DNA of 64,000 bases from Gracilaria domingensis. Lineage: Eukaryota; Rhodophyta; Florideophyceae; Gracilariales; Gracilariaceae. The DNA lies in assembly GCA_022539475.1 (NCBI GenBank), contig VCMS01000049.1:62001-126000 (forward strand), written 5' to 3'. Below are positions 13,701 to 59,779 of this stretch, in pieces; position 1 is the first letter of the stretch; each line of letters starts with the position of its first letter. The translations under genes were made by a program, and so were the position numbers. A model generated the notes under the pieces. It had not been told where the DNA came from and did no database searches. It saw only the letters and a program-made list of their open reading frames with translations.

Positions 13701-14100
13701 CCTCTGCCTGTTTCCGAACCCCATACCGGTAACGAGGGACCCCGTGGCCAGCGAGCCCAAGCACTCGTCGCCAAGTAACCTGAGCAGGCGCCGCAGGCGG
13801 AAGTTCAGGAAAACTGAAAGAGGGAGTCTCCCTTTCGGGAGAGTCGTCCTCAGAGTTGAGGCTATTGACGCTAGAGGCGTCCTTGCCTCGCTCTCCGGTG
13901 AAAGTCCTCTCGATGAAAAACGCCGCAGACGCGGATTCGGAGCACATCGGTGTCCTGCGTCGACCGTCGATACGGGTAAGGAATAACCGTACCTCGGACC
14001 GAATCATGGTGATGGCCAAGCGAAAATATGAGGTGTACGCTGACTTTGGCCTGAGCCCTCAGTTTATGGTGCGTTACCTGCGTCTGTCTCTTGCAGATGC
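10800..14100 (+). mobile_element. Ty3/gypsy fossil B, 5' part: leader and Gag, broken
   Basis: This is the leader and Gag region of a second gypsy element. The Gag part spans about 11,601-13,778. It starts with a Pro/Ser-rich region and a coiled-coil-like stretch, then an acidic Ser/Asp tract, then a capsid-like region. It ends with a CCHC zinc knuckle (CHLCYTHGHISPQC, C-x2-C-x4-H-x4-C) at about 13,486-13,527, typical of nucleocapsid. Gag carries a few breaks. The sequence then runs into the 14.1-30.7 kb block, and gypsy sequence is seen again only at the integrase tail near 30.75 kb. No paired LTRs were found. Apparent age is moderate. Confidence 0.75.
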
Positions 14101-14113
14101 TAGTTTTTGGCGA

Positions 14114-14213
14114 GGGTCGTCCAGAAATTGGCAAGGGTCGTCCAGTAAATTTTTTGAAAAAATATCGAGATCAATTATTTCAAAATCTGCAGATAATTGC
14201 TTGGGTCGTCCAG
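14114..14213 (+). repeat. three copies of GGGTCGTCCAG
   Basis: The 11-mer GGGTCGTCCAG occurs at 14,114, 14,135 and 14,203, each followed by an A/T-rich segment. It lies exactly where the gypsy Gag reading fades, so it may mark subterminal sequence of the inserted block. No mirrored copy was seen near 30.6 kb. Confidence 0.5.
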
Positions 14214-14511
14214 AATCGCTGTGCAGTAAATACTGGTGGGTTTTCCACTCGTGCTAGTTCTTTAGTCGAGGGCTACCTGAACTGTATTTCGCGAAGTCTA
14301 GGTTCAGTTTCCATTAAGGTGCACATTACACGATACCTTCTACGGAATGATACCCTGCAACGCATGGAATACTGGTGCTAGTACAGATGATGCCCATTAT
14401 GAAATCATACCGTTTTATTCGTATCTATTCTTCTATCGACCGCTTTTGCTAACCACTATTTCGCTATATTACGTGTACCATTTCCCCATGATGGATCGGG
14501 TGTAGGCGCAA

Positions 14512-14531
14512 TCTGCGGCAGATGCCGCAGA
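14512..14531. repeat. short perfect hairpin (9-bp arms)
   Basis: TCTGCGGCA and TGCCGCAGA are separated by two bases. It is the first of three closely spaced hairpins. Confidence 0.7.
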
Positions 14532-14578
14532 CTGCACCTCCACCATAGTGCGGTATCGGTAGAACACATACGCACTCC

Positions 14579-14611
14579 GAGAGGATGAGGCGCGAAGCGC
14601 CTCATCCTCTC
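14579..14611. repeat. perfect hairpin (15-bp arms, GAA loop)
   Basis: The left arm is GAGAGGATGAGGCGC and the right arm is GCGCCTCATCCTCTC, with a 3-base loop. It sits one base before a second long hairpin. There is no T-run after it, so it is not a simple terminator. Confidence 0.8.
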
Positions 14612-14612
14612 C

Positions 14613-14664
14613 GTTCCTCATGTAGGGAACCATGCCCAGATGCATGGTTCCCTACTTGAGGAAC
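14613..14664. repeat. long hairpin (23-24-bp arms, one mismatch)
   Basis: Both outer ends read GTTCCTCA/TGAGGAAC and the inner arms are GTAGGGAACCATGC and GCATGGTTCCCTAC. With the preceding hairpin it forms a cruciform-prone cluster of about 90 bp upstream of the transposase. Confidence 0.8.
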
Positions 14665-14989
14665 CTGCACCTGCAACTCGTGAGCTACGTCCGCATCAAA
14701 AGTCATTTACCTGTATACGCAAGCAGAAAGTATCCATAAGTTAGTCAATGATCCGTTAGATACATTTGAAATGCGATGGAACGTACCATTGATAAAACAA
14801 AACAGAAACGTTGCGCTAGAAAAGTCGAGGGACCTGGTAACTCGCAAACGGAAGAAGAAGCAGGAAAGGGATCGGTTAGATTACCAACCCACCATATCAT
14901 CGTAAACCGCGAAAGGTGTCGAAGCGAGAACTCACAAGCAACGACACCAAGAATACCCATGCAGCAAACATACCGCAAAATGCGATAAA

Positions 14990-15420
14990 CGAGAGAGCAG
15001 CCTATGTCGCAACCAAGTACCAGAATCGACTATCCCGCAAGCCAGTCAACCAAGATCGCCAATACAAGAAGATCAACGTAAGGCGCGAGAAGAGAGGCGA
15101 GTCTATGAGGCAACCAAGTCAAACCATATCGCCAATGCACCAAAAGTAACGCAAGACGCGATAAGAGAGAGACCATCCTATGGCGCAACCTAGTCAACCA
15201 AGATTGCCAATGATGAACCTATCGCCCGAGCCAGTCAACCAATATCAACCAATATCGCCAATACACCAAAAGCAGCGCAAGACGCGAGAAGAGAGAAGAG
15301 TCTATGGCGGAACCAAGATCGCCAACAAACCAAAAGTAGCGCAAGATGCGAGAAGCTAGAGACGCCTATGGCGCAACAAAGTGAACCAAGATCGGCAATA
15401 CCGCGTGATAGGTTACACGA
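14990..15420 (+). repeat. diverged tandem repeats, unit about 60-80 bp
   Basis: Four to five units share, in order, TATGGCGCAAC, AAGTCAACCAAGATCGCCAA, ACACCAAAAG(T/C)A and GCGCAAGACGCGAGAAGAGA. Copies start near 15,000, 15,104, 15,179, 15,303 and 15,366 with variable spacing. Subterminal repeat arrays are common in CMC/EnSpm transposons, where transposase or an accessory protein binds them. That role is inferred from position, about 0.7-1.1 kb upstream of the transposase. Confidence 0.6.
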
Positions 15421-15785
15421 GCAGTCAGAGATCGATCTTGAGAGACGAAATGAAACTGGTTGCGTACTTACAGTCGTTGTGGACGTCGGAAGAAATACAA
15501 AGGACGCACGTCAAATAGTGGTTACCTTCAATCACGTCAATGTTAGTAGCAAGACGTAGAACAAGATGGAACATATCGTAAGCAGAACGTAGTTGAACAA
15601 ATGGAACGAGTTGGAGGCTGAAAACGGGAACCCGGTAACCCAAAGCTTATTTTCTGCCGTTTACATGTCGAATAGCGCGAAAAAACGTGGTGAGGATGGG
15701 TTAGTTTAGAGCAAAGATACATAGAAGAATATGGAAGAGAACCTACGAAAAGACTGCACGGAATACATCCGTGAGATACGGATGA

Positions 15786-15860
15786 CTCCGTCCTACTTTT
15801 TTCCGCCCTCTACTTTAAGGAACCTCCATAAAGTACAGGGAGGAAAAAAGAAGGACGGAG
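15786..15860. repeat. imperfect 75-bp inverted repeat
   Basis: The arms are CTCCGTCCTACTTTTTTCC... and ...GGAAAAAAGAAGGACGGAG. They meet near 15,823 with a handful of mismatches. It lies 270 bp upstream of the transposase start codon. Confidence 0.65.
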
Positions 15861-16133
15861 GGGAGTATAACGCGAGGATGTGGATGGCACGGATCACGAC
15901 GGTAAGGGAAGGTCGGACGTCGGAGGCGCGGCGGCGGCGGCGGAGGGAAGAGATTTATTTTTCTGTGCGAGATTGGACAGGTGTACAGCGTACAACGTTG
16001 CGAAACCACAGGTTTATAACCAGTGGTAGATAATACGAGAAGTACACCCTTTTGTTGAGGTCGACGTGTACCTACGTTCCTTTTTGAACGAAAGCACGTG
16101 ATTTAAACTCAAAATATATTCTCCGTTCTCAGC

Positions 16134-19100
16134 ATGACGTCGATCTTGACTGTCGCTCGACCTCCTTCTCCCTTCGGACGCCCTTCCCTTGCAGTCTTTG
16201 TCGTCGTTTCTCGTTCAGTTCTTCTTCCCATGGTCTACTACTGTACACATAAGAAGCGTGGGTGCCCCTTCGTTACTCGCCGAGGAGTCTTATCCCTTCA
16301 ACAGCATGTCAACCATTGCCCGTTTCGTCTGAAAGCAGCGCTGGAAGACGACAATAGCCGGCCCATTCGGAGAAGCAAGCGTCTCAAGCTTTCCGCACCC
16401 GCGCCCGCATCTTCCGAAACGGTCACTGCCCCTTGTCGCCTTCCCGAGCCTCCAATGTCCGAGGACATCGTCGACCCCACTCCGTGCGCCCCTCCCATTC
16501 CGGACACTTCGCATTGTGTTTCTCCTTCCCCGGCTCCCGCGTCATTAGAGCGAGAACACGGAAGCAGTTCCCGCCCAGTGCCTTCTGAGGAGGCCCTCGG
16601 TGATTTGCATATGGATTATCTCACGGTTTGTCTGGCTTCAGTAGCTTCCAACCTTGGTCATCGTGAGGCGGACGAGCTAATTGGGCTACTTCGGGACCCG
16701 CGATTCTCGCAAAAGCGATTCAACGAGACCATAACAAGTTCCAAGCGCTGTACAGAACTGAAGAAGGCCATTTTCGAACGATACGCCTCAAAGGACGGTT
16801 TCAATCGCAGAACTGTCTCGCCAGAAGGATGTAAGTTCAGCGCCACCCTCTACACGAGAGACCCCGTTCAGACACTTGTGAAACAGCTCCAGTTGGCTAA
16901 CAACGAAAACACATTCTTCCACCCTATACCTCAGACCCACTCCACGAAAATATCTCACCCCATGTCCGGCTCTCTCGCAAGAGACGCCACCTCAAAACTT
17001 AAGGAAATGGTCATGGGCTCTTTGGATAGTAGAATAGTGTGGTACTCCCAAGAAATAAGTTACAGTGAATCTTTCGTAGGTCTTCTGCAGGTATACACCG
17101 ATAAGTCTTCAACAACTCTAAAGCAAACATCGGTTACCGCCTATCCTCTTCACCTCATATTTCTCAACTTCTCCGACCAGCTTCGCCGTAAGTGTATCCG
17201 TGATGACCTCACAGTAGTGGCATACTTCCCTACCACACTGATCGAGGTTTCCGCATCTGAAGCAGACGCAATGCCATTTGTTTCTAGCAAGTCTCTACGC
17301 GAGTCCAGGATGCAAATCCTTCAAGAATCTCTTCGTCAAGTCCTGGAGCCCATTCTAAATCTCACGCAGAAAGGTTTTCAGTTCATCGGCGAAGACAAAC
17401 TAAGTCGAGTGTGCCATCCTCTGCTTGCAAGTTATTGTGCGGATATTCCTGAGGCTAAGGACATTATGTCTATTCTTCATGGCACCAAAACGGAAAGCCC
17501 GTGTCATAGATGCAAAGCCCCTCGCTCATCTTTATGCAGTCCTATTCCCACCTCATTCAACGGACGTTCTCAAAAGCACACGAAAAGCATCCGAAAGACA
17601 TACACAGCTATCTTGCAACATGCACAAAAAGACGAGGCGGAAAGACGTCCACGTCGTGCGAGGGAGAGGAGATCTCAAGCGGATACTCTGATGCGTTCAA
17701 ATTCCATATCTCTCATTCCTTCGTTCCTCGAAACTTCCGTAAGCCTTGGAATGATCCCGGGATTGTCTCCATACAGTCTGTTCTCATTCGAACCATTACA
17801 CAACTTGCATCTCGGCATCTCAAAGTTGATAAAAACGGCCACAGTCGAGAGACTGCAGTCAGACACCCTGTGCACCACATTAGGAACATCTGCATCGCGT
17901 TCATTTCGAACGATACGCACCCAACTCCTCAACCATGCAAACGCAATTATAGCTGCCATAGAACGCGATTCTCCTGCCAAAGGTTTACATATCGATTTCT
18001 CCACGCAGGAGAAAGGCAAATCTTTGAATGGTATCTTCACGAAAGACGGTCTCCGTGGAATGCTGGAGGCCAAAAACTACAAAGCACTTGACATGGTCTT
18101 TCCCTTCATAGGAGCATTCTTTGACATATGCTGTGGAGAACAGGACGTTGCCCCAATCACAACCGTTTTCTCTCAGTACTCGGACTTGCTCTCGACCTTA
18201 TTCAGATACAATCGTGACCCGTATTGGACTGAAAGCTCTCTCCTGTGTCTTAGTTCGGAGATTGAAGCCTTCAAGCGTTCCGCAACAAAGACTCTGGCGG
18301 ATTTTCATCCCTCCAGACTGAGAACTCTGAAGTTTCATCTTCTCGATCATCTCGTGGACGATATTCGCCGTCTGGGAAGTATCAAGTATTACGACGCAGG
18401 CATATACGAACATGCACACCTGCTATTTAAAAGACACTACAAAAAGACGTCCAGAAGAACAGCAACGGCTGTGGAGGAGACTATTCGCTCCATTGAGCAC
18501 GGACATGTTAGAAAGCAATGGAATGGCAATACTCCTTACCAGCGTAATCCAGGTTTACCAGGAACTTCCACACAGCTTCCTCGGTTTGCAATGAGAGGGC
18601 GTTCTTTCACTTTACGAGCTCTTCAACATTGTGTTTCAAGCATGTCCAGTTCAAAAACATGGACTGCTGTTAGAGAAATGTTCTCAAGTACGGACACAAG
18701 GTCGATTCTTGATCAAATTGGTGAACAGGCCCTTCCTCCTTTCCTCAGTCTCGTGAAAGAAACACTGGATGAGCACTCTATTACATACTTCCCAGAAAAG
18801 ACAAGGATAACTCTGGTGAATTCGGCCGTCGTGAAAGGCGGTTTCGTTCCGACTCTTGAACACTTCGATTCGTCTTCTAAGGCACTTAAGCTGGGACGAC
18901 CCAAATACCCCATCATCCAACGTGTCTTCGCTTCTCCAGCATTTAGTCCCAGTAGAAAGCCAAAGTTTTCCACTGTATTGGTAAGCGGAGAAGATTCAGA
19001 GACTTGGGTTGCCCAGGTAGTCGCTCTGATTCGAATATCTCTCCTTGATTCTGCACTTACCGCACCAGAGGTGGCATTCGTCCGGTATTTCGAGGTTTTA

Positions 19101-19409
19101 CCCCCCGCAACAAACATCGACCACATATTGAAATGCATATCTTTACGGTGGGCTACAAACGATGAAAAGAACCACACTCTTCCGTTCCCTCGTCATTCCA
19201 AAGCGGAGACTATCGTAGACTTAACTCCTTGGTACGGGATGGTTCCGGCTTCTGCACTACAGGGAACTGTCCATGTTGTTCGATCAAACTACCCTGCTCC
19301 ACCTTTTTGTCCTCCACTTCAATGGTTCCAACACCGATTCTACATCAATCGATTCTATCATGATTCAGATAAAGGACCAACTGAGCACGTTGATCTTGTA
19401 CAGCCTTAA
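16134..19409 (+). CDS. Plavaka-like (CMC superfamily) DNA transposase, 1091 aa
   Basis: This is an uninterrupted frame of 1091 residues starting at ATG 16,134. A second ATG at 16,230 has a good context (CCCATGG) and may be the true start. Near the N-terminus Cys37, Cys44, His58 and Cys62 form a likely zinc finger. The centre has the Plavaka signature: VYTDKSSTTLKQTSVTAYP (Asp323), then IFLNF and VVAYFP. Further on is SFEPLHNLHLGISK (residues 551-564), where family members usually have Asp-x-x-His; here Glu553 precedes PLH. The C-terminal IYEHAHLLFKRHYKKTSRR carries Glu759, a candidate third catalytic residue. The long open frame suggests recent activity. It would act in the nucleus, excising and inserting an element by a DDE/D mechanism. 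It is tail-to-tail with the next gene. Confidence 0.85.
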   Translation: MTSILTVARPPSPFGRPSLAVFVVVSRSVLLPMVYYCTHKKRGCPFVTRRGVLSLQQHVNHCPFRLKAALEDDNSRPIRRSKRLKLSAPAPASSETVTAPCRLPEPPMSEDIVDPTPCAPPIPDTSHCVSPSPAPASLEREHGSSSRPVPSEEALGDLHMDYLTVCLASVASNLGHREADELIGLLRDPRFSQKRFNETITSSKRCTELKKAIFERYASKDGFNRRTVSPEGCKFSATLYTRDPVQTLVKQLQLANNENTFFHPIPQTHSTKISHPMSGSLARDATSKLKEMVMGSLDSRIVWYSQEISYSESFVGLLQVYTDKSSTTLKQTSVTAYPLHLIFLNFSDQLRRKCIRDDLTVVAYFPTTLIEVSASEADAMPFVSSKSLRESRMQILQESLRQVLEPILNLTQKGFQFIGEDKLSRVCHPLLASYCADIPEAKDIMSILHGTKTESPCHRCKAPRSSLCSPIPTSFNGRSQKHTKSIRKTYTAILQHAQKDEAERRPRRARERRSQADTLMRSNSISLIPSFLETSVSLGMIPGLSPYSLFSFEPLHNLHLGISKLIKTATVERLQSDTLCTTLGTSASRSFRTIRTQLLNHANAIIAAIERDSPAKGLHIDFSTQEKGKSLNGIFTKDGLRGMLEAKNYKALDMVFPFIGAFFDICCGEQDVAPITTVFSQYSDLLSTLFRYNRDPYWTESSLLCLSSEIEAFKRSATKTLADFHPSRLRTLKFHLLDHLVDDIRRLGSIKYYDAGIYEHAHLLFKRHYKKTSRRTATAVEETIRSIEHGHVRKQWNGNTPYQRNPGLPGTSTQLPRFAMRGRSFTLRALQHCVSSMSSSKTWTAVREMFSSTDTRSILDQIGEQALPPFLSLVKETLDEHSITYFPEKTRITLVNSAVVKGGFVPTLEHFDSSSKALKLGRPKYPIIQRVFASPAFSPSRKPKFSTVLVSGEDSETWVAQVVALIRISLLDSALTAPEVAFVRYFEVLPPATNIDHILKCISLRWATNDEKNHTLPFPRHSKAETIVDLTPWYGMVPASALQGTVHVVRSNYPAPPFCPPLQWFQHRFYINRFYHDSDKGPTEHVDLVQP

Positions 19410-21794
19410 ACATTAAGGGCTCCATCTTCTACATGTTCACCTTGTGGTGCCTTTTCTTGTGATCCTGTGTTAATTCCGAAATCGTTCATGTCCATTTCCT
19501 TGAACTCCATATCCCCTTCCTCGCATTCACCAACGAAGGAATCGCTAATAGACCCCAATCTTCGGCTCACACTGTCAATAAAAAATTGTTCTTTCACAGT
19601 GAGGTAAAGTCTTCCGTTCGACGGCATTCGATATCCAAATGTAGCCTCTCTCATGTCATTACCAAGAACCTTAGTCCAATCTTCCGTTGTCGTTCCAAAA
19701 TTATGAAACTCGCTGGAATTGGTCCTCAAGACATGTTGCCTAACATCCCCAGAACATTCTTTAAACACAGAGGTAGCAGTTCAGCAAACTTCTTTGTAAA
19801 CAGTTTCTGTCTCTGGCCACCCCTTGACACATCCGTACTTAGAAGGCTCACAACCGTCAACACCCAAGCGTCCAAACGTGCGAGCAACAGTATTGTGCCG
19901 TCTAAAAAGGTGCCCGTATCCTTGTCTTCCACATCATACCCAATAAACTCCTTCAGCACTTGTACCCCGACACGGTTTCGGAAGAACAAGTCTTGATCTT
20001 CCGTCGGCATATCCTCGACATTGTCCGCATTGGAGTACTTTAGACGAACAAATGGGGCTTTTCTCCACCATGAAGTGTTCGGTACACCATTTTCGTCAAG
20101 ACGCAGTATGTTCTCCTGCGCTTCCTTCAACTGCATTGTGAGTTCGTCAGCATTCTCTTCTACCAGCTTTGTTCTTCTCCAAATCAGATCGTACCCCAGG
20201 AGCAGAAATAGTTTATCCCTCGTATTTCTCTTACGAACGCCCACGACGTCACTCATGGTCTGCCGCATTCTCTGCCTAAGGCACATATCTGCACAAAGTT
20301 CCAGTATACACCTGTCGGTAAGAGATGCTTTTCTAATACCTTCCCAGCTCAACTCCTTCAACTCGCTTTCAACCATTTTCTTCAGCAAAGCATCTGGCCC
20401 CCCTCTACCGACGGTGTGAACATGCCAAAACTGCCCAAGAGCTCCACGGGGTTTTTAGGAACCATGTATGAACCACCTTCCTCCGGCTCAATAAGCCCTT
20501 CCCCACTCTCAGTTGCGTCTTCCACCTTCTCGGCACGGTTACCCCAATTTCGGGTGAGCGACTCACCTTCGAGCCATAGCTCACTTGTTTCTCTCCTTGC
20601 CCACGTCAGCATGTTGTGATACACTGCTCGAGCAACCCTCGAAACTCGTCGCACACCTCAATTTTATGCTTCTTTCGACCTGTCTGCCCAGGTTCACCAG
20701 CACGTGTACTCCTATCTCCCTCCTGTTTCAGTGCCCCTCTTAGCCCTTCAATGACTAGATCCTTCTCTTCAAGCCTCTTTTTAAAGCCGTACTCTGCTCT
20801 TGGGCGACCTTCACTAGAATTCCCCGAACCATCAAGTCCTCTTGTAGCGTCTTAACCTTTTCTTTCAAGCAATTCAGTTCATTTAAAAGATCAGGTCTGT
20901 TCATAGAGCTTGAATTCACACCAGTTTGGATATCTTCCGTTATTTCCCTAGCTTCTTCGGCGACAGGCCCGGTAATGCCGCAGGATTCGGTGTTATTTCG
21001 TTATCGGAACTATCTTCATGTGCCATAGCCTTAGCCACGAGAGGCTGCAGGCGTTCTGTGTCCACCCTTGGCACGGCTCCGAGCTCCAACTCCCGTGTAT
21101 GTCCTCCTCCATGGCATGGTATATCAGATGAATTGGGCCTCGTACGAGCTGCAACGGCCCCCGTTCTGGAAAGAGGGGAAGGTCGAAAAGTAACTCGTCT
21201 ATCAGTTGTCTCTCGATTTCTTATTGTGTTTCTCCCTTGTCCGGACCCATTGCGAGGCATGATACGATTCATAGCGGCCCCAGTTCTAGAAGAGAGGGAT
21301 GGACGTGACGATCTTAATATACTAGGACTCTCACGACTTCTCGTCATTGTCCCTTGTTGTCCAGATCCACTGGGCGGCGTAACCCGCGCCCCAGTAGCTC
21401 CGGTCTTCGATATCGGCGGGGACATGAAGGTTTTGGTGTCATACGAACCTCTTCGGTTCCAGTTGTCATGCCCTCCTGTCCTGACCCGCTGGGCCGAGTT
21501 ACCTCATCTTCTTGAGGAGCAGAGACAGATGCACGATTTGCATTATCGGCAGTTGACGGCACGACATCGTTCGCTGATCCACGAATTCTTGACGCAATCC
21601 GGAAGACGCTCCGCTGCGAGATGGGCGAGAGGGTCTGTAGAAGGACGCCCACTGACTCTCTCCTTCGTCGAGGACGACTTCCGTTTAGGAAGTGCGGTGC
21701 TTGTAGCCTGATTCGTATCATCCGATGCTCTTCTCTTCTTCTGTCCACTCTTGTTCCGCTGCGTACTATTTCGCTTTCTCGGCGTTATACCCAT
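19406..21794 (-). pseudogene. unknown gene of the composite element, frame-interrupted
   Basis: A chain of minus-strand frames (21,794-21,543, 21,748-21,344, 21,425-20,940, 20,654-20,382, 20,388-19,726 and 19,768-19,406) reads like one protein whose frame changes several times. The cause may be decay, sequencing error or tiny introns. The start is ATG 21,794, followed by a Lys/Arg-rich nuclear-type N-terminus (KKRRASDD). Next comes a low-complexity part with repeated P-x-x-GSGQ units (RPSGSGQ, PPSGSGQ, RNGSGQ), then a more regular, charged helical part (19.7-20.4 kb) with Trp-rich and Cys-rich spots. The C-terminus is acidic. Its stop overlaps the transposase stop (shared TTAA). No family was recognised; an accessory DNA-binding protein is possible but unproven. 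Confidence 0.5.
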
Positions 21795-21831
21795 GCTGTG
21801 GAGATAAACAGGGTAATGAAACGAAATTGTT

Positions 21832-21863
21832 GGGGAGGGGGGGAGGGGGTGGGGGGGGGGGTG
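21832..21863 (+). repeat. G-run (quadruplex-capable) upstream of the minus gene
   Basis: About 32 bases are almost pure G on the plus strand, interrupted by single A or T. Four or more G-tracts make a G-quadruplex possible. It starts 38 bp upstream of the ATG at 21,794, so it may influence expression of that gene, or it may be a sequencing-difficult spot. Confidence 0.7.
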
Positions 21864-22153
21864 GCGTGGTTCAGATATTCCGGAAGACTCCGTAGTTCCT
21901 GCTTTTTAGGAATTTGAGGTGCCCAATGGGTCGCAAATATCGCCGTTCAAATAGATGAAGAGCTCCAGTGTACATGTACAACGCGTACTGCAGGCAGCTG
22001 CAACATTCACAAGCATATTTACTTTCCATTCGGTACTGACTCATCTAGTGCTCCAATGTCAGAGCCAGTCCAGGCGTACTGCTCTCCGTAGTTGAAATAC
22101 AACTCTTCGCCCTCTCAATATCTCTTACTGCTCTACAACGAAGTAGAGCATAG

Positions 22154-22625
22154 TTAGAAAGGTCTGACTTGAACTGTATCACGGACTTCGCTTCCACCAC
22201 TGCACATTGGCACTTCGAGTCCTGTTTGACCGGGGCTCCGATAAATCGGGATCCCCGGCATGATATCCGGCGTCGTTAATGTAGCCCCCGATACAAAAGG
22301 CGCCGGGACAATGTAGACTTCGCTCTCCTTTCTATCCTGAGCCTGTCCTGGTCTGTTCCTCAGGTGCAGAAACTCCGTACCAGTCACAGTGACCATCATA
22401 GAAAACAACTTGTACCGCACTGGAGTTGCTCCGAGACAGCCACTTCCATACGTTAAGTGTCTTTCCTTCCGGTTCGTCAGATCCGTGTATACCAAAGTTC
22501 CATAGAAATGACAGATAGTTTCCCCAGCCAATATCTTATGTTCCGTGAACACCCCCATACCAGCACGGGGATGTCGGATCTTAGAAGATGCTATATGTAA
22601 GCGATATCGATTGGCTTCAAACAGT
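22154..22625 (-). pseudogene. SET-domain-like segment downstream of the methyltransferase
   Basis: On the minus strand the open frame reads IASSKIRHPRAGMGVFTEHK, then ILAGETICHFYGTLVY. This matches the beginning of SET domains (S-x-I-x-x-(A/G)G-x-GVF-x-x-x-x-I-x-x-G-E-x-I-x-x-Y-G). The later SET core (NHS-C-x-PN) was not recognised, so the domain is partial or divergent. Its ATG at 22,558 lies inside the motif, and the frame is open about 20 codons further upstream. The segment between 22,640 and 22,890 also reads protein-like in another frame, so this is likely the C-terminal part of the methyltransferase gene separated by frame breaks near an assembly gap. Confidence 0.45.
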
Positions 22626-22802
22626 CAACAGCATATGCATATCCATAAGATTCAGAGCTCCTCGTACTTCTCCTCCCAAAGATCTACAGTACGCTCTCCA
22701 CACTTGTCGACAAAGTCCCAGTCCTTCCAGTATCTTCCTAGGAACTGAGTAATATGTCCAGGCATCACTTGGTACTGGGGGTAACCAAATGGAGCCTCCC
22801 AT

Positions 22803-25228
22803 TCAAGCCGACCTCGGTCCCGATGTGGAAACCCGTTCATAGGTCGTTGAAGCCGCATCCACCACCTCCTGTTCAACCAGGATGTCATTCTTCCCCCCCC
22901 GAATAACTTCGGCCATAAGAGTCGTTAGATGGTGCTTCGCATGGCTGAAACATGGCCTATTCTTCTCGCATCCGAAGAACTTCCTATGCTTTGTCAGCGA
23001 TAGGCACGCATACCCGTAGNCCCCCAAGAACTTCCTATGCTTTGTCAGCGATAGGCACGCCATACCCGTAGAAACGTTCCCGCGAACATGTCCATGACAA
23101 GATCACCCGGTCTTGTGAAGCGACATATCAACTCCTTCATCAACTCCCTCGACTTCTGCTCCGGTCTTATGTACTGCCCACCTGGTACTGAACTACCTGG
23201 CTCATGTACCTTCCATGTCAACCACTCCCCCGCTCTCGGTTTTGGCACCCGGTCAATTACATTCCTGTTAGCCAGGAAAGTAGAAGGAATGAAATTGTTC
23301 TCCTCAAATGGAGTAAGACTGGCTTCCTCGGATGGTCGCAATCCACGCTTCACCCCATGAACGGCGTACCCCGTTACGGGCTGTATCCCAAACTTCCGTG
23401 GATTCCCTCCAACATTACTTCGATCCCGGATGAACACCAGTGGATTCGCATCCACTTTAAACGAAGGCATGAGTTCTGGTTTACCTTCGCTTCCAGCTTC
23501 ATCTTTCGTACTCGCCGTTTCCGAAAGTATCCTGTGCCAAACATGAAACTGTGCCATGGCACAGAATATAATGAAGTGCCCACCTGACCGAAGCGCGGAA
23601 CTTATTAAGTCAGCCGTACGGATCATGTCTTCCTCACTGAAGACATCGTGACCACTATTCTGTTTGTTCCTCTTCCTTCGAGTGTTAAAGGGAGGGTCTG
23701 TTAGGACAAGCTGTGCCTCACCCCATAAAATCTCACTCTGATTCACAAACGTTTCGTGTGTGTGCCTCAGGTCCTTCATGTCACAGTTGTACGCTACAAA
23801 GTGTGACTTTCTCATCCCCTTCCACACCTTGTCCATATTCATTCGAAGGAGACTGGATATCCCCTTCATGGGCGGCTCAATACCAGTCTTTTGGATGTTG
23901 TAACCAGCAACCCGAGATTCATGCTCCGCAAGATTCACCGGCTTCTCGAACTCGTCGCTATCGGAGCTCACGAGGTTCATATACTCTCGACGAGGTGGGG
24001 GTGGGGCAGACTTGGTCGAAGAAGGTTCGGCATTACCGGAAGTTTTAGGGGTTTTCGTCAGTTCAATATCAGGTTTCGCGTGAATGCCGACATGGAACCC
24101 TGCCGCATGACGCATATCCTGTATCGGTTTCCATAGCAACTCCGAAAACTTCTGAAATCGAGCAGGCAACTCACCGGAGTCAGAGCTAGATACGGTATCC
24201 ATCCGTATCTCCGAAAACTCTATCCAGTTCCTCATCTGATCAACCCGTAAGCTATAGAGGCTATCGTGGGTGCATATGGTTTCGAGGTCTGTCAAAAACT
24301 CCTTAGCCAGTATTCGCAGGTTTGTATCGCATTCATCACTCAAGGTCTCCACCGATCCACTAGTACTGCTCTGTGGCACATCCTTTGTGTTGAATCGAGT
24401 ACTCTGGCTCGGCGGGGCATAACCAGACTCCCGTGTCTCTAGCGCTGTATACTTCAACGTCTGCATATTCATGTAAATGTATGGTTTCACCATGTGCTGA
24501 ACGTTCGTGTATCCAAGATGAGCCGCAAAACAACTCCATGCCCATACGACCTCACTGATACCGAATCCCAGTCGATCACAGTTGTCTTTGGAGAACGACG
24601 TAAAAGTGGGTATGTACACAGCTGGTGCATGGTTCACTTTTCGTTTCTTTTTCGGTTGTTTCTTCTTCATCATTCGGATGTTGTCGTTCTCTCCCATTAT
24701 GTGGCCGAGGTATGATAAGTATATAACGACCTCAAATGGGTTCACAGCTGTTGGTGGGATGAACACTGTCGTCTTCAGAACCTGCTTTCTCCTGGTCATG
24801 AAATAACCAACCAGGCATCGCACCGGTAGGTATATACCCATATCCATAGAGAGAAGGAAAAAATCGCGCAGTCTCTGGTCCTCATCCCCGTCCTTCTTGT
24901 CAAGAAGCTTCGTTACAAGATATCGCTGTTCCACAGGTTTGTTATTCACAACACTCTTTCGCAGCTGTTGCAGTGTCAAGTTCTGCAGGTTCTTGGAGTT
25001 AGTGGCCTCCTCAAACATCTTCCTTGCCTCCGGAATATCCTTATAGTTCTCGGCGCAGAACTCTATTAACCCTCTAAACCCCACGTCCCGTGGCCGATCA
25101 GGGCCTCCATCGCTGTTTGCCAAAGCATCGCGAAGAACCAAGAAAAGTCTGACATATGCATGGAACGCCGGAGGCGGAGCACTCATGTCGATAGGATGTA
25201 TCTCCTCTCCAACATCGGTGGAATCCAT
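22803..25228 (-). CDS. beta-class DNA methyltransferase (DPPF), probably adenine-N6, with long N-terminal extension
   Basis: The start is ATG 25,228 and the frame is open to 23,045. Residues 1-480 are an extension with a Pro/Ser-rich linker and no recognised domain. Motif IV, LVLTDPPFNTRRK, has DPPF at 511-514. The AdoMet-binding motif VMDMFAG is at 711-717, near the C-terminus, after KSRELMKELICRFTRPGDL. The order DPPF then FxG is that of the beta class, and DPP(F/Y) usually goes with N6-adenine rather than cytosine methylation. After FAGTF the protein should continue TGMACLSLTKHRKFFGCEK, which is found in another frame at 22,803-23,063, across a duplicated sequence and an N. I therefore take it as one gene disturbed by the assembly. 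It diverges from the ParB-like gene and shares a mirrored promoter with it. Confidence 0.8.
22980..23064. other. assembly join: one N inside a duplicated ~45-bp sequence
   Basis: The string CTTCCTATGCTTTGTCAGCG continues to ATAGGCACGC in two copies, about 22,981-23,019 and 23,031-23,070, with the single N (near 23,020) and a short C-run between them. The copies differ by one base in the stretch GGCACGC(C)ATACCCG. This looks like two contig ends joined without merging their overlap. It duplicates and breaks the methyltransferase reading frame here. Confidence 0.75.
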
Positions 25229-25240
25229 CGCTTCAGCGCA

Positions 25241-25345
25241 AACAACGGAGGCGAGCCTTTAAATGGCGACTTACGCTGGGCACCCCCGCTTTCGGCAGCT
25301 CCTCCCAGCGCACTGCCAGTCTCGTCCGTGTCCGTGTCCGCTCGG
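25241..25345 (-). promoter_or_regulatory. promoter arm for the methyltransferase gene
   Basis: A TATA-like TTTAAA (25,258-25,263) lies 30 bp from the methyltransferase ATG. It is set in the ~105-bp sequence that recurs in mirror image before the ParB gene. The identity of the two arms implies that both genes respond to the same factors. That it is a promoter is inferred from position and the TATA-like box. Confidence 0.55.
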
Positions 25346-25570
25346 AGCGATAGCGTCGCGTGTCGGCCACGTCGCGATTCGGAGCTATTGCAACGGTCCC
25401 GTATTGTGCTAAAAGTCGCGGATCAAGTGGGTGTGAAGCGCTAGTTTTCTCTAGTTTGATATATGTGTACGGCGTGTGCAGCGAAATCACTGCCGGAAGT
25501 GCCGGGAGGAGTGTTTTGGGAGGTCTCCGGAAGGCGCCGGAATGTGACCAGAACGTGCCCGCGGGCGCGG

Positions 25571-25614
25571 GGGTCCGGTCGTGTTAGGGTAGGTACCCTA
25601 ACACGACCGGACCC
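25571..25614. repeat. palindrome P1 (21-bp perfect arms)
   Basis: The left arm ends CGGTCGTGTTAGGGTA, then GG, then TACCCTAACACGACCG begins the right arm; the outer bases GGGTC/GACCC also pair. The core contains TTAGGG and its complement. A GC-rich box, CCCGCCCGCGGGC, follows. Confidence 0.9.
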
Positions 25615-25680
25615 CCCCGCCCGCGGGCATAAAATCGCACATTTTTCAAAAAATCGTCCAAAATGTGCCCGCGGGCGGGG

Positions 25681-25724
25681 GGGTCCAGTCGTGTTAGGGT
25701 ACCTACCCTAACACGACCGGACCC
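25681..25724. repeat. palindrome P2 (21-bp arms, one mismatch)
   Basis: It has the same arms as P1 with a CC centre and a single A/G mismatch in the left arm (GTCCAGTCGTG). It is flanked on both sides by CCCGCGGGC boxes. Confidence 0.9.
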
Positions 25725-25814
25725 CCCCGCCCGCGGGCACGTTTTCGACGATTTTTTGGCACCCTCCGGAGACCTCCCAAAACACTCCTCCCGGCACTTC
25801 CGGCAGTGATTTCG

Positions 25815-25936
25815 TCACCTCAGTGAACCATCCCGGAAATTAGGGAGTGTCTGGAGGGTGGAGAAGACGGGATGGTCACCTCAGTGCACCATCCCGGAAA
25901 TTAGGGAGTGTCTGGAGGGTTAAGATGACGGGATGG
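25815..25936. repeat. two 61-bp tandem units at the centre of the inverted repeat
   Basis: Units 25,815-25,875 and 25,876-25,936 each start TCACCTCAGTG and end GACGGGATGG, with few differences. The second unit can also fold: GTGCACCATCCCG pairs exactly with CGGGATGGTGCAC. Confidence 0.85.
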
Positions 25937-26040
25937 TGCACTAAGGTGACGCAGTGGGTACAAGAAGTGCCGGGAGGAGTGTTTTGGGAGGTCTCCGGAG
26001 GGTGCCAGAATGTGGCCAGAACGTGCCGGCGGGCGGGGGG

Positions 26041-26080
26041 GGTCGGTCGTGTTAGGGTACCTACCCTAACACGACCGACC
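26041..26080. repeat. palindrome P3 (19-bp perfect arms)
   Basis: GGTCGGTCGTGTTAGGGTA, CC, then the exact complement. It is the mirror partner of P2 in the large inverted repeat. Confidence 0.9.
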
Positions 26081-26152
26081 CCCCACGCCCGCGGGCACGT
26101 TTTGGGCGATTTTTTGAAAAATGTGCGATTTTATGCCCGCGGGCGGGGGGTC

Positions 26153-26186
26153 CGGTCGTGTTAGGGTAGGTACCCTAACACGACCG
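26153..26186. repeat. palindrome P4 (16-bp perfect arms)
   Basis: CGGTCGTGTTAGGGTA, GG, TACCCTAACACGACCG. It is the mirror partner of P1. The flanks diverge from pairing after these 16 bases. Confidence 0.9.
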
Positions 26187-26465
26187 ACCCCCCCCCGCCC
26201 GCGGGCATAAAATCGCAACATTCCGGTGCCTTCCCGGGACCTGCCAAAACACGCCGCCGCGCAGTGATTTCGCTACACCCGGCCGCCGGTACGTTGGCGC
26301 CGCTGTCCACGTGTATTGGCGGGAGTAGGCTGTACATGGAAGTGAATGAGTGTACTCTTGACTACTATGCAAAGCATTTGAAGAGCATGATTAGAGAACG
26401 CGACCATTGCTCGCGTGAGTCATCATTGCGCGAACTCCACGACTCTAAAGCGTACAATCAGCGTG

Positions 26466-26574
26466 CGAGCGGCCACGGACAGGACACGGACGAGACTGGC
26501 AGTGCGCTGGGAGGAGCTGCCGAAAGCGGGGGTGCCCAGCGTAAGTCGCCTTTTAAAGGCTCGCCTCCGTTGTT
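26466..26574 (+). promoter_or_regulatory. promoter arm for the ParB-like gene
   Basis: This is the mirror copy of the methyltransferase promoter arm. TTTAAA at 26,552-26,557 lies 77 bp before the ParB-like ATG, inside CGCCTTTTAAAGGCTCGCC. Only a few bases differ from the other arm, which suggests selection or recent gene-conversion-like copying. Confidence 0.55.
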
Positions 26575-26633
26575 GTATCGTCCAGAGCGAGCGTATTGTT
26601 GATATACACCTTTCACTGCAATAGCTGTTCAAC

Positions 26634-29267
26634 ATGAAGCCAACTCGTGTTCGAAAGCGTACGCAAAGCGTGACTCCTCGCACTCGGCGGAGCACTCGAT
26701 TATTGCAAGGTGGAATGCGGGTTTCTCTGCAGATGGATATTGAGGATGAAGGAAAGGTGATAGTCGGGGAAGCGTTGTTGCACGGAATTGGAAGTGTTCT
26801 ACGCCGCGAGTTGCACGGGAAGCAATTGGACCCAGGTCTTGTGGTAGTTCATAATATTCTCATCAGTCGAAGCGGTCAGACGTTCTACCCTTACCGGGCG
26901 GAGGGCCTGGATCTTCCACAATATATCCAGGATCTCCGGACGGCCGCTCCTTGGGATGAGAAAATGATGGAACCGGTGGCAGCCAGCATTCCGGCGTCGA
27001 AGCGAGGAACGGTGAGCGCTATGAGTGAGGTGATGACGCCGACAAGCCGCACGGAGCCAATTCGAAGTTCATCAACACCGAGAGGTAGCGCATCAGTAGC
27101 ACCTCCGCGGGCAGGTCCGTCGTCTATTACGAAGCGGTCTATGGAGACGAGAGCATCCCCAGCTACGAAGCGGACAGGTCAAACAAAGTCTACCTCCGCT
27201 ACGAAGCCCACTGCGTCGAAAAGGGCTTCTCCTGCGATGAATCAGACCGTCGACACAAGGGGAACTTCTGCGTCGAAACAGACGGTTCAGCAGGGGACGG
27301 CTGTGCAAGAGGAGGAAGATGAGATCATGAAAGGTCCCCTTCCAGACGCGGATGCGCAATCCGCGCAAGGAGCTGGTCCATCTGTACCCCAAACTGCACT
27401 AGAAACTGCGGAGCAGCAGGACGATGACGTTGTGCTTCTGTCCGCAAGAATGGCACGTTCAAGTGTTTCTGGCGAGCGGTCTGGAACACAAGGGACACCT
27501 ACTCGGAGCAAGACGTACAGACGAATTCGTCAGAAGGTACCAAAGGTGAACCTCAATCAGTACCGGATGGTTGTTGTTACTGTTGACATCACTCTGGTGG
27601 ACACTCCGCCCAATTTACTACGTGGAGTAAGTAAACGCCACGTTGAAGCCCTTGTGAAGAGTATAGAGGAGCGGGGGATATTGCAGTCGATGGGTTCTCC
27701 AGTGGTGGCCTTACAAGATGCTACTACGGGAGAGAGGGATACTGACAAGGGACGCCTAACGAAGAAGTGCTTCATTGTAGATGGTTTGCATCGTCTGAAA
27801 GCTATACAATATTTGGCAGCGACTGATGCACCGAAGTGGAAGCGATTAGCCAAGTTTTGGCGTTGCAATCTGCTGATACGAAGAGATGGGAGGCCCATTG
27901 GGATGAAGGAATTGTTATGTGTTGCTTCGTACCTCAATGAGTCGACGAGTACCATGCGAAGGATGATGTTTGCAGACAAGATACACTCTATAGTTAGTGT
28001 GGTCGCCATTCTAATTGAAGATGTTGAGGGGGTGACGCCGGCAGACGTGGATCCTGCAGAAGTGACAGAAGTGTTGAAGGAGAGCCAACTGATTGGGACT
28101 GTGCAAGAGCGTCAGTACCTGAGATATGCCAATGTCGCCCTGCAACTCATGTCTCGTGAGAGAATGCTGGCCCATTTCGAGGATATATGTGAGACTGTGA
28201 GTGACATAGGTCTCACACATCTGTCCCATACTCCGCTATATGTTTTGGATGCCGAGGAGTTTTCCTTCATTCTTGATTGTCTTCAGATGTTTCTATTGAA
28301 GGGCAAGTCGACGAAGACAAAGCAATGGAAAAGCTTTGAGGAGGTTCGAGGTTTCTTTTATGATAGAGCAGTGTCTCTGTTCCGCGCGGCTCGAGCAGTG
28401 AGGAATGAACTGAACGAGGAAGAGTCGATGGAAGTGTTCTTGAAACGCGAAATCAGTCTGTCTGCTCCATCGAGTGAAGATGACGTTGAGGACCCAGACA
28501 ACAACGCAGCTGTGAATCAGTTCCTTTTGGGACACGTTGTGAACTTCAATACATTGCCGCGTGTTCGGAGCAGGATGAACTCAATTAGAACTGCCACGAA
28601 TTCCGTTCAGAATCGATTGCGGACGATGCTCAAGGTAATTCCGCCCCCCGCACCAGTGAAGCAGTCCGTGACAAAGAGGAGGACTCCCGCTGCTGCTGCT
28701 GCAACATCTGACAGTGAAGAAGGGGAGCCGCGAAGAAGTGCACGAGAACGGGCGCAGGTGAGTTATAGGGAAATCGAACACGGCCGAAATCGAGGTGCCA
28801 TAGAAGTTCTGGATAGCTCTGAAGAAGAACAGCGGGCTCCGCCGAGGAAGAAACGGAGAAAGACTTTCACACAACAGATGAGATCTACTCTGAACAGCAT
28901 GACACCGGATGACCTGATGTCTCAACTAAATGAACATGTGCTGAGAGGAAGGTCGATGAAGGTTCAGTTCGTGGCATTGGGAGAGGGAGCGAATGCAGAG
29001 AACGCAGGCAGTTCTGCATTTGTGGATGACGAAGAGCTTCTTTCTGTGACAGTTCCACGGGTTGTCACCGTCGAGAAAGATGCTGCGCCAGACGATCAGC
29101 AAGAGACAGGTGGGGGGTCATTTGATGACGAGTTACCTACAGCTCTTCCGGAATCTGAGGAGCACGGACTTGTTCGAGGTGACCCATATGATGGCCCACC
29201 GAACCCATCATGGTGCGGGTATGCCAGGCTGAGGCCGCAGGAATGGCAAGGGAAGAACGTTAATTGA
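26634..29267 (+). CDS. ParB/sulfiredoxin-fold protein, 877 aa, nuclear-type
   Basis: The start is ATG 26,634. Residues 1-110 are a small basic-to-mixed globular part. Residues about 120-300 are a Ser/Thr/Lys/Pro-rich linker with repeated SATK/ASKR-type words. The ParB N-terminal domain is about 301-420: VSKRHVEALVKSIEERGIL (about 331-349) and then FIVDGLHRLKA (380-390), which corresponds to the (V/I)-x-DG-x-HR-x-x-A box of ParB/Srx proteins. A helical region follows, about 430-600. The C-terminal third is acidic and charged, with a likely nuclear localisation signal PRKKRRK. Bacterial ParB binds palindromic parS and CTP; some eukaryotic relatives occur with DNA methyltransferases on mobile elements. 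Here it faces a set of palindromes, making DNA binding or chromatin reading a fair guess. The following dioxygenase frame overlaps its 3' end. Confidence 0.8.
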   Translation: MKPTRVRKRTQSVTPRTRRSTRLLQGGMRVSLQMDIEDEGKVIVGEALLHGIGSVLRRELHGKQLDPGLVVVHNILISRSGQTFYPYRAEGLDLPQYIQDLRTAAPWDEKMMEPVAASIPASKRGTVSAMSEVMTPTSRTEPIRSSSTPRGSASVAPPRAGPSSITKRSMETRASPATKRTGQTKSTSATKPTASKRASPAMNQTVDTRGTSASKQTVQQGTAVQEEEDEIMKGPLPDADAQSAQGAGPSVPQTALETAEQQDDDVVLLSARMARSSVSGERSGTQGTPTRSKTYRRIRQKVPKVNLNQYRMVVVTVDITLVDTPPNLLRGVSKRHVEALVKSIEERGILQSMGSPVVALQDATTGERDTDKGRLTKKCFIVDGLHRLKAIQYLAATDAPKWKRLAKFWRCNLLIRRDGRPIGMKELLCVASYLNESTSTMRRMMFADKIHSIVSVVAILIEDVEGVTPADVDPAEVTEVLKESQLIGTVQERQYLRYANVALQLMSRERMLAHFEDICETVSDIGLTHLSHTPLYVLDAEEFSFILDCLQMFLLKGKSTKTKQWKSFEEVRGFFYDRAVSLFRAARAVRNELNEEESMEVFLKREISLSAPSSEDDVEDPDNNAAVNQFLLGHVVNFNTLPRVRSRMNSIRTATNSVQNRLRTMLKVIPPPAPVKQSVTKRRTPAAAAATSDSEEGEPRRSARERAQVSYREIEHGRNRGAIEVLDSSEEEQRAPPRKKRRKTFTQQMRSTLNSMTPDDLMSQLNEHVLRGRSMKVQFVALGEGANAENAGSSAFVDDEELLSVTVPRVVTVEKDAAPDDQQETGGGSFDDELPTALPESEEHGLVRGDPYDGPPNPSWCGYARLRPQEWQGKNVN

Positions 29268-29415
29268 GCACAAGGACCCCTGGCTCAGAGTCATTCACTT
29301 GCCGAAGGGACATAGGTCGGAGCTGCTAAGTGTCTCGAATCTCAGAGATGTACACCATCTTGTCTTTTGGCACGCTGCAAGGGCTGAACATCGCCTACGG
29401 GCGGAGACATTTGGT

Positions 29416-30552
29416 ATGCAGTATCCCCGTACTCGACCGACAGGTATGGATGATGAAGAGGTGCTGTGGGTTGCTGCGAAGGAGCATGACGAATTTGGGC
29501 AAATGTTCTTCGCCCGAATGCAAGCTGAGCTAAGGCAGAATGGATATTGCGTGCTTGATGGCTTTGCGACGGATAATGGTGTCCCTAAATGGGAGGAGTT
29601 GGAAGAAGTTCGGGAGTTCGGAGATGTGTCGGGGAAGTTGGTGGACTTCTTCGAGAATGAGTATGGAGCGATGCCGGATATACGGAAAGGAGAGGAACAG
29701 AAGTCGTTTGTTCAAATAATCAACGATGATGAAGGATGGAAGGACGGTAGCGATGGACCATTTGAGGGGAGAGTGATGTCGACACGTTGGGGTACGGTGG
29801 AGAAGCCGGAGGATAATGAGGAGCTCAGGTGGGTTGTAAGGTTGCGTGCTTTACTTGATGTTCGAATGGGTACAATTGCTGCGGCTTTGGGACTATGGGA
29901 CAATGAAAGGGAAGCTGTGAAGATGTACACTCCGAAAACTGGTGGTCGATTTCTGGGGACGACGAGAAAGTGCAAGCGCCAGACGCTGCACACCGACTTC
30001 AGTGGTCTGGTTACGAAGGAAACAATGAATACTGGCAACCCCGGATACTTTGTAATGGCCTCTGGGAAAGAGGGCTTTCCTCTCTGGGTGAGCGCTGGAA
30101 GCCATCAACTGGTGGGGATGAACAACCAACAGTTGCGAGTGATGTCGGAGGTGTATCCAGCGAAGAAGATAATCATCCCACCGTACTCTGTATTCGTGGG
30201 CCGTGGTGATGTGACACATGCTGGAGCAAGTGGGAAGGACAAGGTGGATAGGCCCGAGTCTATGGATTTGCTGGTTAGATACCACATGTACATGGTACCA
30301 GAGGGCTACGCACTACCTGATGCTGTTCATCGGGTGCGGGATTTCCGACCCACGTTTGTCAATGGTGACGAGGAGGAGGAGGCGGAGGATGAACTGTTGT
30401 CCGATAAGGAGGGTGGGGCGGTTGACATGGACGAAGACCAAGTGGTCGTGGAGATTGGTGTGGAAGCGGACGCCGGTAGAACCGAAGTGCTCGAGAGTAG
30501 TAGTGATGACGATTTGCCAATAATGAGGCTGCGAGCGCCTCGAAGTGGATGA
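29416..30552 (+). CDS. 2-oxoglutarate/Fe(II)-dependent dioxygenase-like protein
   Basis: Counting from ATG 29,416, the protein has 378 residues. RQTLHTDFSG gives the iron ligands His192 and Asp194, GRGDVTHAG gives His268, and LLVRYHMYM gives Arg288, the usual 2OG-binding position 10-20 residues later. Between them lies a double-stranded beta-helix pattern (PGYFVMASG, PLWVSAGSHQL, IIIPPYSVFVG). The tail is very acidic. The frame is open from 29,233 and reads protein-like upstream of the ATG (KDPWLRVIHLPKGHRSE), overlapping the ParB-like 3' end in another frame. Therefore the true start may lie upstream through splicing, or the two genes may be expressed together. Substrate is unknown; in this neighbourhood a modified base, possibly N6-methyladenine, is attractive but unproven. 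It could also be a phytanoyl-type hydroxylase. Confidence 0.7.
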   Translation: MQYPRTRPTGMDDEEVLWVAAKEHDEFGQMFFARMQAELRQNGYCVLDGFATDNGVPKWEELEEVREFGDVSGKLVDFFENEYGAMPDIRKGEEQKSFVQIINDDEGWKDGSDGPFEGRVMSTRWGTVEKPEDNEELRWVVRLRALLDVRMGTIAAALGLWDNEREAVKMYTPKTGGRFLGTTRKCKRQTLHTDFSGLVTKETMNTGNPGYFVMASGKEGFPLWVSAGSHQLVGMNNQQLRVMSEVYPAKKIIIPPYSVFVGRGDVTHAGASGKDKVDRPESMDLLVRYHMYMVPEGYALPDAVHRVRDFRPTFVNGDEEEEAEDELLSDKEGGAVDMDEDQVVVEIGVEADAGRTEVLESSSDDDLPIMRLRAPRSG

Positions 30553-30750
30553 GAATGAGATGATTAGTAAATTATGTGTGTCTTGCGAGTATTAAGAGTA
30601 GTATACTATTACAAGGCTATACATATGAACATAGAAAAGGTGCGGCAGGCTGGTAATTGAACAAATGTCAAACGTCTTTGGTCCAGTTGCGTCTAATTGC
30701 AACATGCCAAATGCTCGGTATCGTTAACATCATTGGTGGCACCATTCAAT
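30553..30750. other. right-hand junction of the inserted block
   Basis: About 200 AT-rich bases lie between the dioxygenase stop and the first recognisable gypsy integrase sequence. A small inverted repeat, GTTGC...GCAAC, is present near 30,685-30,705. I found no clear mirror copy of the left end (14.1-14.2 kb). Confidence 0.35.
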
Positions 30751-40263: not shown

Positions 40264-40499
40264 GGCAAGAACGGCGGTTGGAAAGTGCAGGTCTATTGCC
40301 AAGATTATTTTAGGTGAGATTTTTGGCGAAAAAGAAACCGTAATTTCAATTACCTTCGGCCACAATTAAAAAGGTACTGGAGAGATTGAGGAAAAGCCAA
40401 TTGTTGCGCACTTTACAGTGAGCGCTAAATATATAATGGTTTCCGAAACCGTTGCATTCAATTTGATGGCTTGTGTATTGCTCTTTTACGTCATTTGTT

Positions 40500-41100: not shown

Positions 41101-41102
41101 CG

Positions 41103-41108
41103 TATATA
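41103..41108 (+). promoter_or_regulatory. TATA box of the secreted-protein gene
   Basis: TATATA in CGTATATAGGCGG lies 58 bp before the ATG at 41,166. It is an isolated AT island in a very GC-rich stretch, which sets both the promoter and the start codon choice. Confidence 0.6.
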
Positions 41109-41165
41109 GGCGGCTGGCGCCCGCCGCCGTTCGCGCCTTCTTGTCGCCGCCACATCGCTTTCGTC

Positions 41166-41742: not shown

Positions 41743-41773
<31 letters not shown>

Positions 41774-41870: not shown

Positions 41871-41879
41871 GCTTAGCCG

Positions 41880-42530: not shown

Positions 42531-42535
42531 TGCTC

Positions 42536-59762: not shown

Positions 59763-59779
59763 GGTTGTTAACAACTGTT

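Follow-up and report, generated by a model that had tools for sequence, protein, structure and literature searches.

A stretch of 64,000 nucleotides from the red alga Gracilaria domingensis (C49:62001-126000 of an assembly of 77.9 Mb in 680 contigs), hereafter the window, contains between 14.1 and 30.7 kb a Plavaka transposase, a DNA methyltransferase (MTase) fused to a SET domain, and a ParB-like protein fused to a putative Fe(II)/2-oxoglutarate (2OG) dioxygenase. We confirmed that these genes are parts of one mobile unit: the window holds one copy, truncated on the right, of a large Plavaka-type DNA transposon of the cut-and-paste kind (Table 1). The original prediction, made from the letters alone, had proposed a Plavaka-type transposon carrying MTase, ParB-like and dioxygenase genes, which a recurrent gene order and shared ends bear out; the host is a red alga and not a fungus. 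The anatomy of the giant element described below is well supported and in our judgement close to certain.

Extent, ends and copies of the element

Aligning the copies, as had been suggested, gave common ends, short imperfect inverted termini and a 2-bp duplication at one pair of empty and filled sites. The left parts of three copies start at window 14080-14081, and the right parts of three copies stop at a common point. Similarity to the window is lost at 30761 in all 11 other dioxygenase copies, which run on together beyond this position (two with runs of N); the window copy is therefore truncated there, and an element end at 30.7 kb is ruled out. Instead of the 16.6 kb originally proposed, the complete element is 22.8 kb long, the copy in C20 (34726-57565) spanning 22,840 bp including 356 N. 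Its termini are CGTCTGT..ACAGACG, the left end being CGTCTGTCTCTTGCAG and the right end TTTGCAGAACACAGACG (in C20 with AAACG). The inverted similarity of the ends is short and imperfect (about 15 bp by eye), and no long terminal inverted repeats were found. Subterminal GGGTCGTCCAG repeats are possible transposase-binding sites.

Gene order in the C20 copy is transposase (+), coiled-coil-like gene (-), MTase-SET (-), palindromes and ParB-dioxygenase (+), continuing rightward with HAD-like (+), HAD-like (-), Rossmann-like (-) and coiled-coil-like (+) genes; this copy itself has broken frames for the transposase, MTase and ParB. The original prediction had counted four separate genes, while intact copies have the fusions MTase-SET and ParB-dioxygenase, and the element contains further genes. 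Matches listed genome-wide comprise at least 123 to the Plavaka transposase (probably of several families, judging by profile ranges), at least 61 to the MTase, at least 52 to the ParB-like protein and at least 96 to the dioxygenase. Co-location was counted among these listed matches, with the window counted once in each; only the best candidates were scored, so that the counts are lower bounds. At the offset and orientation seen in the window, 17 of the 61 MTase matches have ParB, 15 the dioxygenase and 12 the transposase; 22 of the 52 ParB matches have the dioxygenase and 6 the transposase; the transposase accompanies 11 of the 96 dioxygenase matches, and the MTase 12 of the 123 Plavaka matches. 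All four genes lie together at C49 (the window), C89 and C168. Transposase termini before 19.4 kb with the other genes never travelling along, the outcome that had been named as speaking against a single unit, were not seen among the copies compared. The copies are near-identical, which points to recent activity of the element.

The copy in C63 is flanked by CTCTACGG on its left and by GGCCCGGCAGTG on its right. C95 has the empty site CTCTACGGCCCGGCAGTG, from which the element is absent, and one frame, presumably that of a strictosidine-synthase-like host gene, is open across it. The flanks of filled C63 and empty C95 show that GG is duplicated at C63, in keeping with the 2- to 3-bp target duplication of the Plavaka group; the absence of a duplication, first suspected, is thereby ruled out for C63. 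By its coordinates the C63 copy is only 8.9 kb long and thus internally deleted. Among 11 copies with both ends read, flanks agree in 2 bp in two (C57, CA; C20, CT), with 0.7 expected by chance, and share no 2 bp in nine, which counts against the duplication. C63 was counted apart, and the 11 leave out the pairs of C168 (no end), C255, C60, C51 and C2 (no right end) and C6 (no left end), as well as single ends in C385, C252, C13, C22 and C169. We assume misassembly or recombination behind the nine mismatches, which is shown only for C359: its left flank is common to C63 and C95 and its right flank is different, so that long copies can be misjoined in the assembly or recombined. Given the nine mismatches and the case of C359, the claim of a 2-bp duplication relies mainly on C63. 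At C89, compared with C174, the left flank continues elsewhere without the right flank, owing either to misassembly or to recombination through the repeat of 22.8 kb. A repeat lies to the left of the element: window 12261-12410 matches the right flank of the copy in C238 at 94%. The "gypsy fossil" said to surround the genes was not confirmed, the two flanking frames scanned having no Pfam match.

Table 1. Features of the element copy in the window (positions in the 64,000-nucleotide window)
Feature	Position	Strand	Remarks
Right-truncated copy of the 22.8-kb element	14081..30761	+	Left end common to the C20, C359 and C60 copies; end match C49:76081 = window 14081
Left terminal sequence CGTCTGTCTCTTGCAGATGCTAG	14081..14103	+	Partner is the right end TTTGCAGAACACAGACG, outside the window
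Three subterminal GGGTCGTCCAG repeats	14107..14216	+	Repeat family D5
Plavaka transposase, intact ORF	16134..19409	+	Pfam PF18759, 68.6 bits (cut-off 26.3)
Coiled-coil-like gene (by eye), several frames	19432..21905	-	Borders approximate; no Pfam match for pieces scanned
MTase-SET fusion gene	22154..25228	-	Broken at about 23.0-23.1 kb, with a local duplication (by eye) and a single N (23020)
SET part of the fusion	22154..22624	-	14.4 bits in the broken window copy, below cut-off 22.4; full match in intact copies
MTase motif TDPPFN	23684..23701	-	Motif reading
93-bp inverted repeat arms	25241..25333 and 26482..26574	.	99% to each other
Palindrome 1	25576..25609	.	34 bp
Palindrome 2	25686..25719	.	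34 bp; one mismatch in one arm
Palindrome 3	26044..26077	.	34 bp
Palindrome 4	26153..26186	.	34 bp
ParB-like/2OG-dioxygenase-like fusion gene	26634..30552	+	Split near 29.26 kb; single frames in other copies
ParB-like box FIVDGLHR	27771..27794	+	Motif reading
Putative Fe/2OG site: HTD (LHTDF), distal H (THAGAS), R (VRYHMY)	29986..30291	+	Motifs only

Genes and palindromes of the element

The open reading frame (ORF) predicted as an intact CMC-type transposase is of the Plavaka type within the CMC group by its Pfam match. Motif reading gives CHRC at 17502-17513 and HNLH at 17799 with H(2)H spacing. Termini of the PlavakaA and PlavakaB type (TGT..ACA or CATCA..TGATG) are not matched by those of the element. 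Viral contigs, searched by short patterns and then tblastn, gave no transposase match.

The MTase-SET protein is encoded as a single frame of 1055 amino acids in loci L014, L015 and L017. The window ORF (23045-25228, minus strand) matches PF01555 with 36.1 bits (cut-off 26.7), and the L015 copy matches PF01555 with 57.0 bits and PF00856 with 32.3 bits over positions 1-105 of the 105 in the SET profile. In the protein TDPPFN precedes FAGTF (23072-23086), the beta-class order, so that the PF01555 match and motifs uphold the DPPF enzyme originally proposed and identify a beta-class N6/N4 DNA methyltransferase by sequence. All eight PDB sequences matched at E ≤ 0.01 are adenine-specific by name, the entries being M1.HpyAVI (named DpnA), MboIIA, CcrM, RsrI and M.BceJIV. 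Foldseek placed N6-adenine enzymes first and N4-cytosine enzymes lower (rotifer N4CMT at rank 28, PvuII at rank 30), using a partial structure model (mean predicted local distance difference test (pLDDT) score 48.2, with blocks at 70-82 mainly in the MTase) that was taken for the MTase fold only. Five MTase-SET relatives (P0004-P0008) were found in a protein search in which relatives need shared 5-residue words and similar length. These are P0004 (42% identity) and P0006 (28%), which have both MTase and SET matches, P0005 (28%) and P0007 (31%), in which the MTase is followed by a tail aligning to SET with no SET match in the precomputed domains, and P0008 (28%), which stops before SET. The viral contigs gave three short or partial methyltransferase matches (36-47%). 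The SET part in L012, the C564 copy, carries an insertion of a further DNA transposon, which by eye resembles pogo and continues the open frame.

The ParB-dioxygenase fusion is unbroken in L022 (1298 amino acids, the last residues out of frame) and L026 (1240 amino acids), and frames of 1308 amino acids and more occur in several other copies listed. The ParB-like ORF of the window (26634-29267) contains a DGLHR box, and the dioxygenase part has the HxD...H...R arrangement of a putative Fe(II)/2OG enzyme. Its residues H253, D255, H329 and R349 are identical in P0003, the one relative compared (41% identity). Alignment to P0003 extends over the region separating the ParB box from the dioxygenase; P0003 begins after the box, so that a ParB fusion is not established for it. 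At the search sensitivity used three relatives of the ParB-dioxygenase were found, two from G. domingensis itself; the G. domingensis record P0001 is 100% identical to locus L039 (C22) in three stretches (residues 439-1170), and a fungal origin is accordingly rejected. The dioxygenase had no match in the viral contigs, and among bacterial and archaeal genomes its pattern matched 42 stretches, none of them a relative.

The MTase-SET and ParB-dioxygenase genes diverge from a region with 1.4 kb between their start codons. This region contains four 34-bp palindromes of the form CGGTCGTGTTAGGGTA-NN-TACCCTAACACGACCG (16-bp arms, 2-bp middle) in two pairs with starts 109-110 bp apart; eight half-sites were observed, with 0.04 expected. 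Genome-wide, their 30-bp core pattern was found 907 times, against 0 for the reversed control. The sites listed number 50 in 19 clusters, 8 of which have a listed element gene no more than 12 kb away, compared with 7.5% of random places (six contigs, the size of C9 being guessed), and 10 of which lie near an element if ends within 20 kb are counted. The C16 copy, which has lost the sequence from the end of the transposase through the MTase to the palindrome region, keeps the array. The two middle bases vary (GG, CC, GC, GA, TC) and the arms are constant, which fits a site for a dimeric protein and is only suggestive because the search pattern fixed the arms. The pieces examined contain between 0 and 12 half-sites each. 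By analogy with partition sites, the array may be the target of the ParB-like protein.

Right of the break in the window copy, and thus outside the window, the element contains two HAD phosphatase-like genes and a Rossmann-like gene (L045, L046 and L047). The HAD-like genes match Pfam Hydrolase_3 with 45.3 and 23.6 bits (cut-off 20.9) and share 48% identity with each other across 214 residues. One has SVDGT in place of DVDGT, and we take its nucleophile to be lost. The Rossmann-like gene, assigned by eye, matches neither Pfam nor NCBIfam, nor any PDB sequence below E 0.2; it has at least 132 copies at 98% or more and lies at the expected offset for 29 of the 96 listed dioxygenase matches. Elsewhere in the window, a 528-codon ORF (58188-59774, minus strand) encodes many ankyrin repeats (Pfam Ank E 1.9e-64), and at 40001-43000 the G+C content reaches 0.64-0.68 and long frames overlap on both strands.

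Selection and host methylation

For each gene we compared the 12 best-scoring copies, a choice that favours intact ones; the window's own place is among the 12. Relative to the window copy, the MTase had 47 non-silent and 85 silent changes, ParB 308 and 220 (with 3 stops) and the dioxygenase 11 and 11, giving ratios of non-silent to silent change (pN/pS) of 0.16, 0.44 and 0.28, respectively; from unique changes the ratios were 0.28, 0.62 and 0.28. These values lend mild support to the genes being functional. Transitions per 1000 sites at CpG versus other C/G positions were 1.94 vs 1.74 in the MTase and 10.45 vs 7.83 in ParB, with 2 and 0 changes in the dioxygenase. ParB transversions were also higher at CpG (7.60 vs 4.25), and CpG observed/expected was 0.90-0.95. 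CpG decay as a sign of 5-methylcytosine (5mC) thus left no clear signature between copies, a comparison that carries little weight because the copies are few and young.

The C5-cytosine methyltransferase profile PF00145 had no match in the assembly at E ≤ 0.001; its control was positive in 10 of 14 genomes, all prokaryotes, and a gene could be concealed by introns or gaps. MT-A70 had 0 matches in the host assembly and 0 in the control genomes as well. Tet_JBP (PF12851) matched neither the dioxygenase protein nor the assembly at E ≤ 10 (control positive in 1 of 14 genomes, below cut-off), which leaves no TET/JBP identity detectable by profile.

A proposed self-made mark and its alternatives

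As a whole, the best explanation of the element, which we consider an evenly balanced proposition, is a Plavaka transposon with an MTase-SET writer and a ParB-dioxygenase acting on the element's own mark. The MTase-SET protein would methylate adenine in the element's DNA and also a histone lysine. The ParB-dioxygenase would bind the palindromes, as ParB binds parS, spread over the element and oxidise the methyl mark, removing or converting it. The chromatin state of the element, and through it expression or excision, would then depend on the balance between the two divergent genes. Since its genes appear capable of marking DNA and histones and of oxidising such marks, the element may control its own chromatin state, and the "write, read and erase" scheme originally suggested may describe it. 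An adenine mark of its own is more likely than erasure of 5mC because the MTase is N6-adenine-like and no C5-methyltransferase was found in the assembly; we think it rather probable that the MTase, which resembles N6-adenine enzymes, makes such a mark. Its most specific form, which we put forward tentatively and judge unlikely, is an epigenetic memory of the element with ParB-guided erasure: MTase-SET would lay down a joint DNA-adenine/histone mark, ParB would load at the parS-like palindromes and spread, and the fused dioxygenase would reset the mark.

Several observations weigh against a self-made adenine mark read and removed in this way. N4-cytosine methyltransferases also match the MTase fold, so that N4-methylcytosine (4mC) is possible as the mark. 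Of the ParB/Srx domain originally proposed the DGLHR box stands, but the ParB-like protein has no Pfam match and the assignment is weak, a phage ParB profile (phrog_3264) giving E 0.0018 over 44 of 337 positions in L026. Similarly, the predicted HxD...H...R of the dioxygenase was found, but there is no family match and no Pfam match at E ≤ 10, and its structure model (pLDDT 30.6, two sequences) is useless for the fold. Two copies, L030 and L032, are without any half-site, with 1.5 kb upstream of ParB covered. A related red alga, Gracilariopsis chorda, has about 8% cytosine methylation, mostly non-CG, according to the accessible part of a review (PMC8566409), which conflicts with a host lacking a C5-methyltransferase, unless there is another source or the gene was missed.

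Methylation in that alga, together with the TET-bearing Plavaka elements published in fungi (PMC12730594, accessible part), would also favour a TET-like role of the dioxygenase in erasing host 5mC, the role suggested for the fungal elements, with MTase-SET secondary. We think this quite unlikely in view of the negative Tet_JBP searches of genome and protein, the lack of a C5-methyltransferase match in the assembly and the absence of a strong CpG excess among changes between copies. The extra genes could instead be passengers or host genes caught by chance with no role in the life of the transposon, as partial copies such as those in C16 and C63 might suggest; this is improbable, with MTase-SET conserved elsewhere at 28-42% identity, an excess of silent changes, and long open frames in many of the copies listed. 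The presence of two HAD genes and a Rossmann-like gene within the same element raises the alternative of hypermodification, in which the methyl group is added, oxidised and processed further by these enzymes into a bulky base shielding the element. Phages provide precedents for such routes. The HAD genes, however, match NCBIfam families only below cut-off and those matches are to small-molecule phosphatases, one carries SVDGT, and no glycosyltransferase or similar enzyme was recognised in the frames scanned, making this distinctly improbable. Nested insertions do occur, as in L012, but order and spacing that recur elsewhere and common outer ends leave a chance nest of unrelated elements a negligible probability.

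DIRS retrotransposons, which carry a Dam-like (putative adenine) methylase, are tyrosine-recombinase retroelements with a methylase of another family, and the bdelloid rotifer N4CMT is encoded by a host gene with a chromodomain. N4CMT (PDB 8s9m) is likewise a eukaryotic DNA methyltransferase of the same predicted fold (structural match E 1.0e-6); it writes 4mC, whereas the G. domingensis MTase is transposon-borne and SET-fused. TET-bearing Plavaka elements and SET-bearing transposons (PMC12730594) and giant Plavaka repeats (PMC11244446) are already in print. In the accessible part of Kojima 2025 (PMC12730594), the TET-bearing elements of Agaricus bisporus and Gymnopus confluens similarly combine a Plavaka transposase, a dioxygenase gene and a short target duplication; their dioxygenase is TET/JBP by structure and their termini are CATCA..TGATG, whereas the red-algal element has no TET match, MTase-SET and ParB fusions and termini CGTCTGT..ACAGACG. 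HarbingerS and MuDR of Phytophthora, named there, likewise encode a SET histone methyltransferase but belong to other transposase superfamilies, and that part mentions no DNA methyltransferase fusion. Many genes of the giant Plavaka repeats of Amoebidium appalachense are tyrosine recombinases, and "ParB" is absent from the accessible text (PMC11244446). The original prediction knew of no Plavaka element with this gene set, and the combination of MTase-SET, ParB-dioxygenase and Plavaka transposase is absent from, and so seems new within, the literature searched (Plavaka transposons; red-algal transposable elements and DNA methylation), as far as the accessible texts extend.

Relatives of both fusion proteins are few at the search sensitivity used. 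If the enzymes work as proposed, a eukaryotic transposon would both write and remove its own DNA mark and combine histone writer and DNA writer in one protein; it would also offer a naturally occurring fusion of a ParB-type reader with a DNA-modifying enzyme. Were ParB-guided erasure true, a eukaryotic transposon would have turned a bacterial-style partition reader into a targeted eraser, and this in a host in which no C5-methyltransferase is recognisable. The seaweed element makes the question of whether transposons write their own chromatin directly testable.

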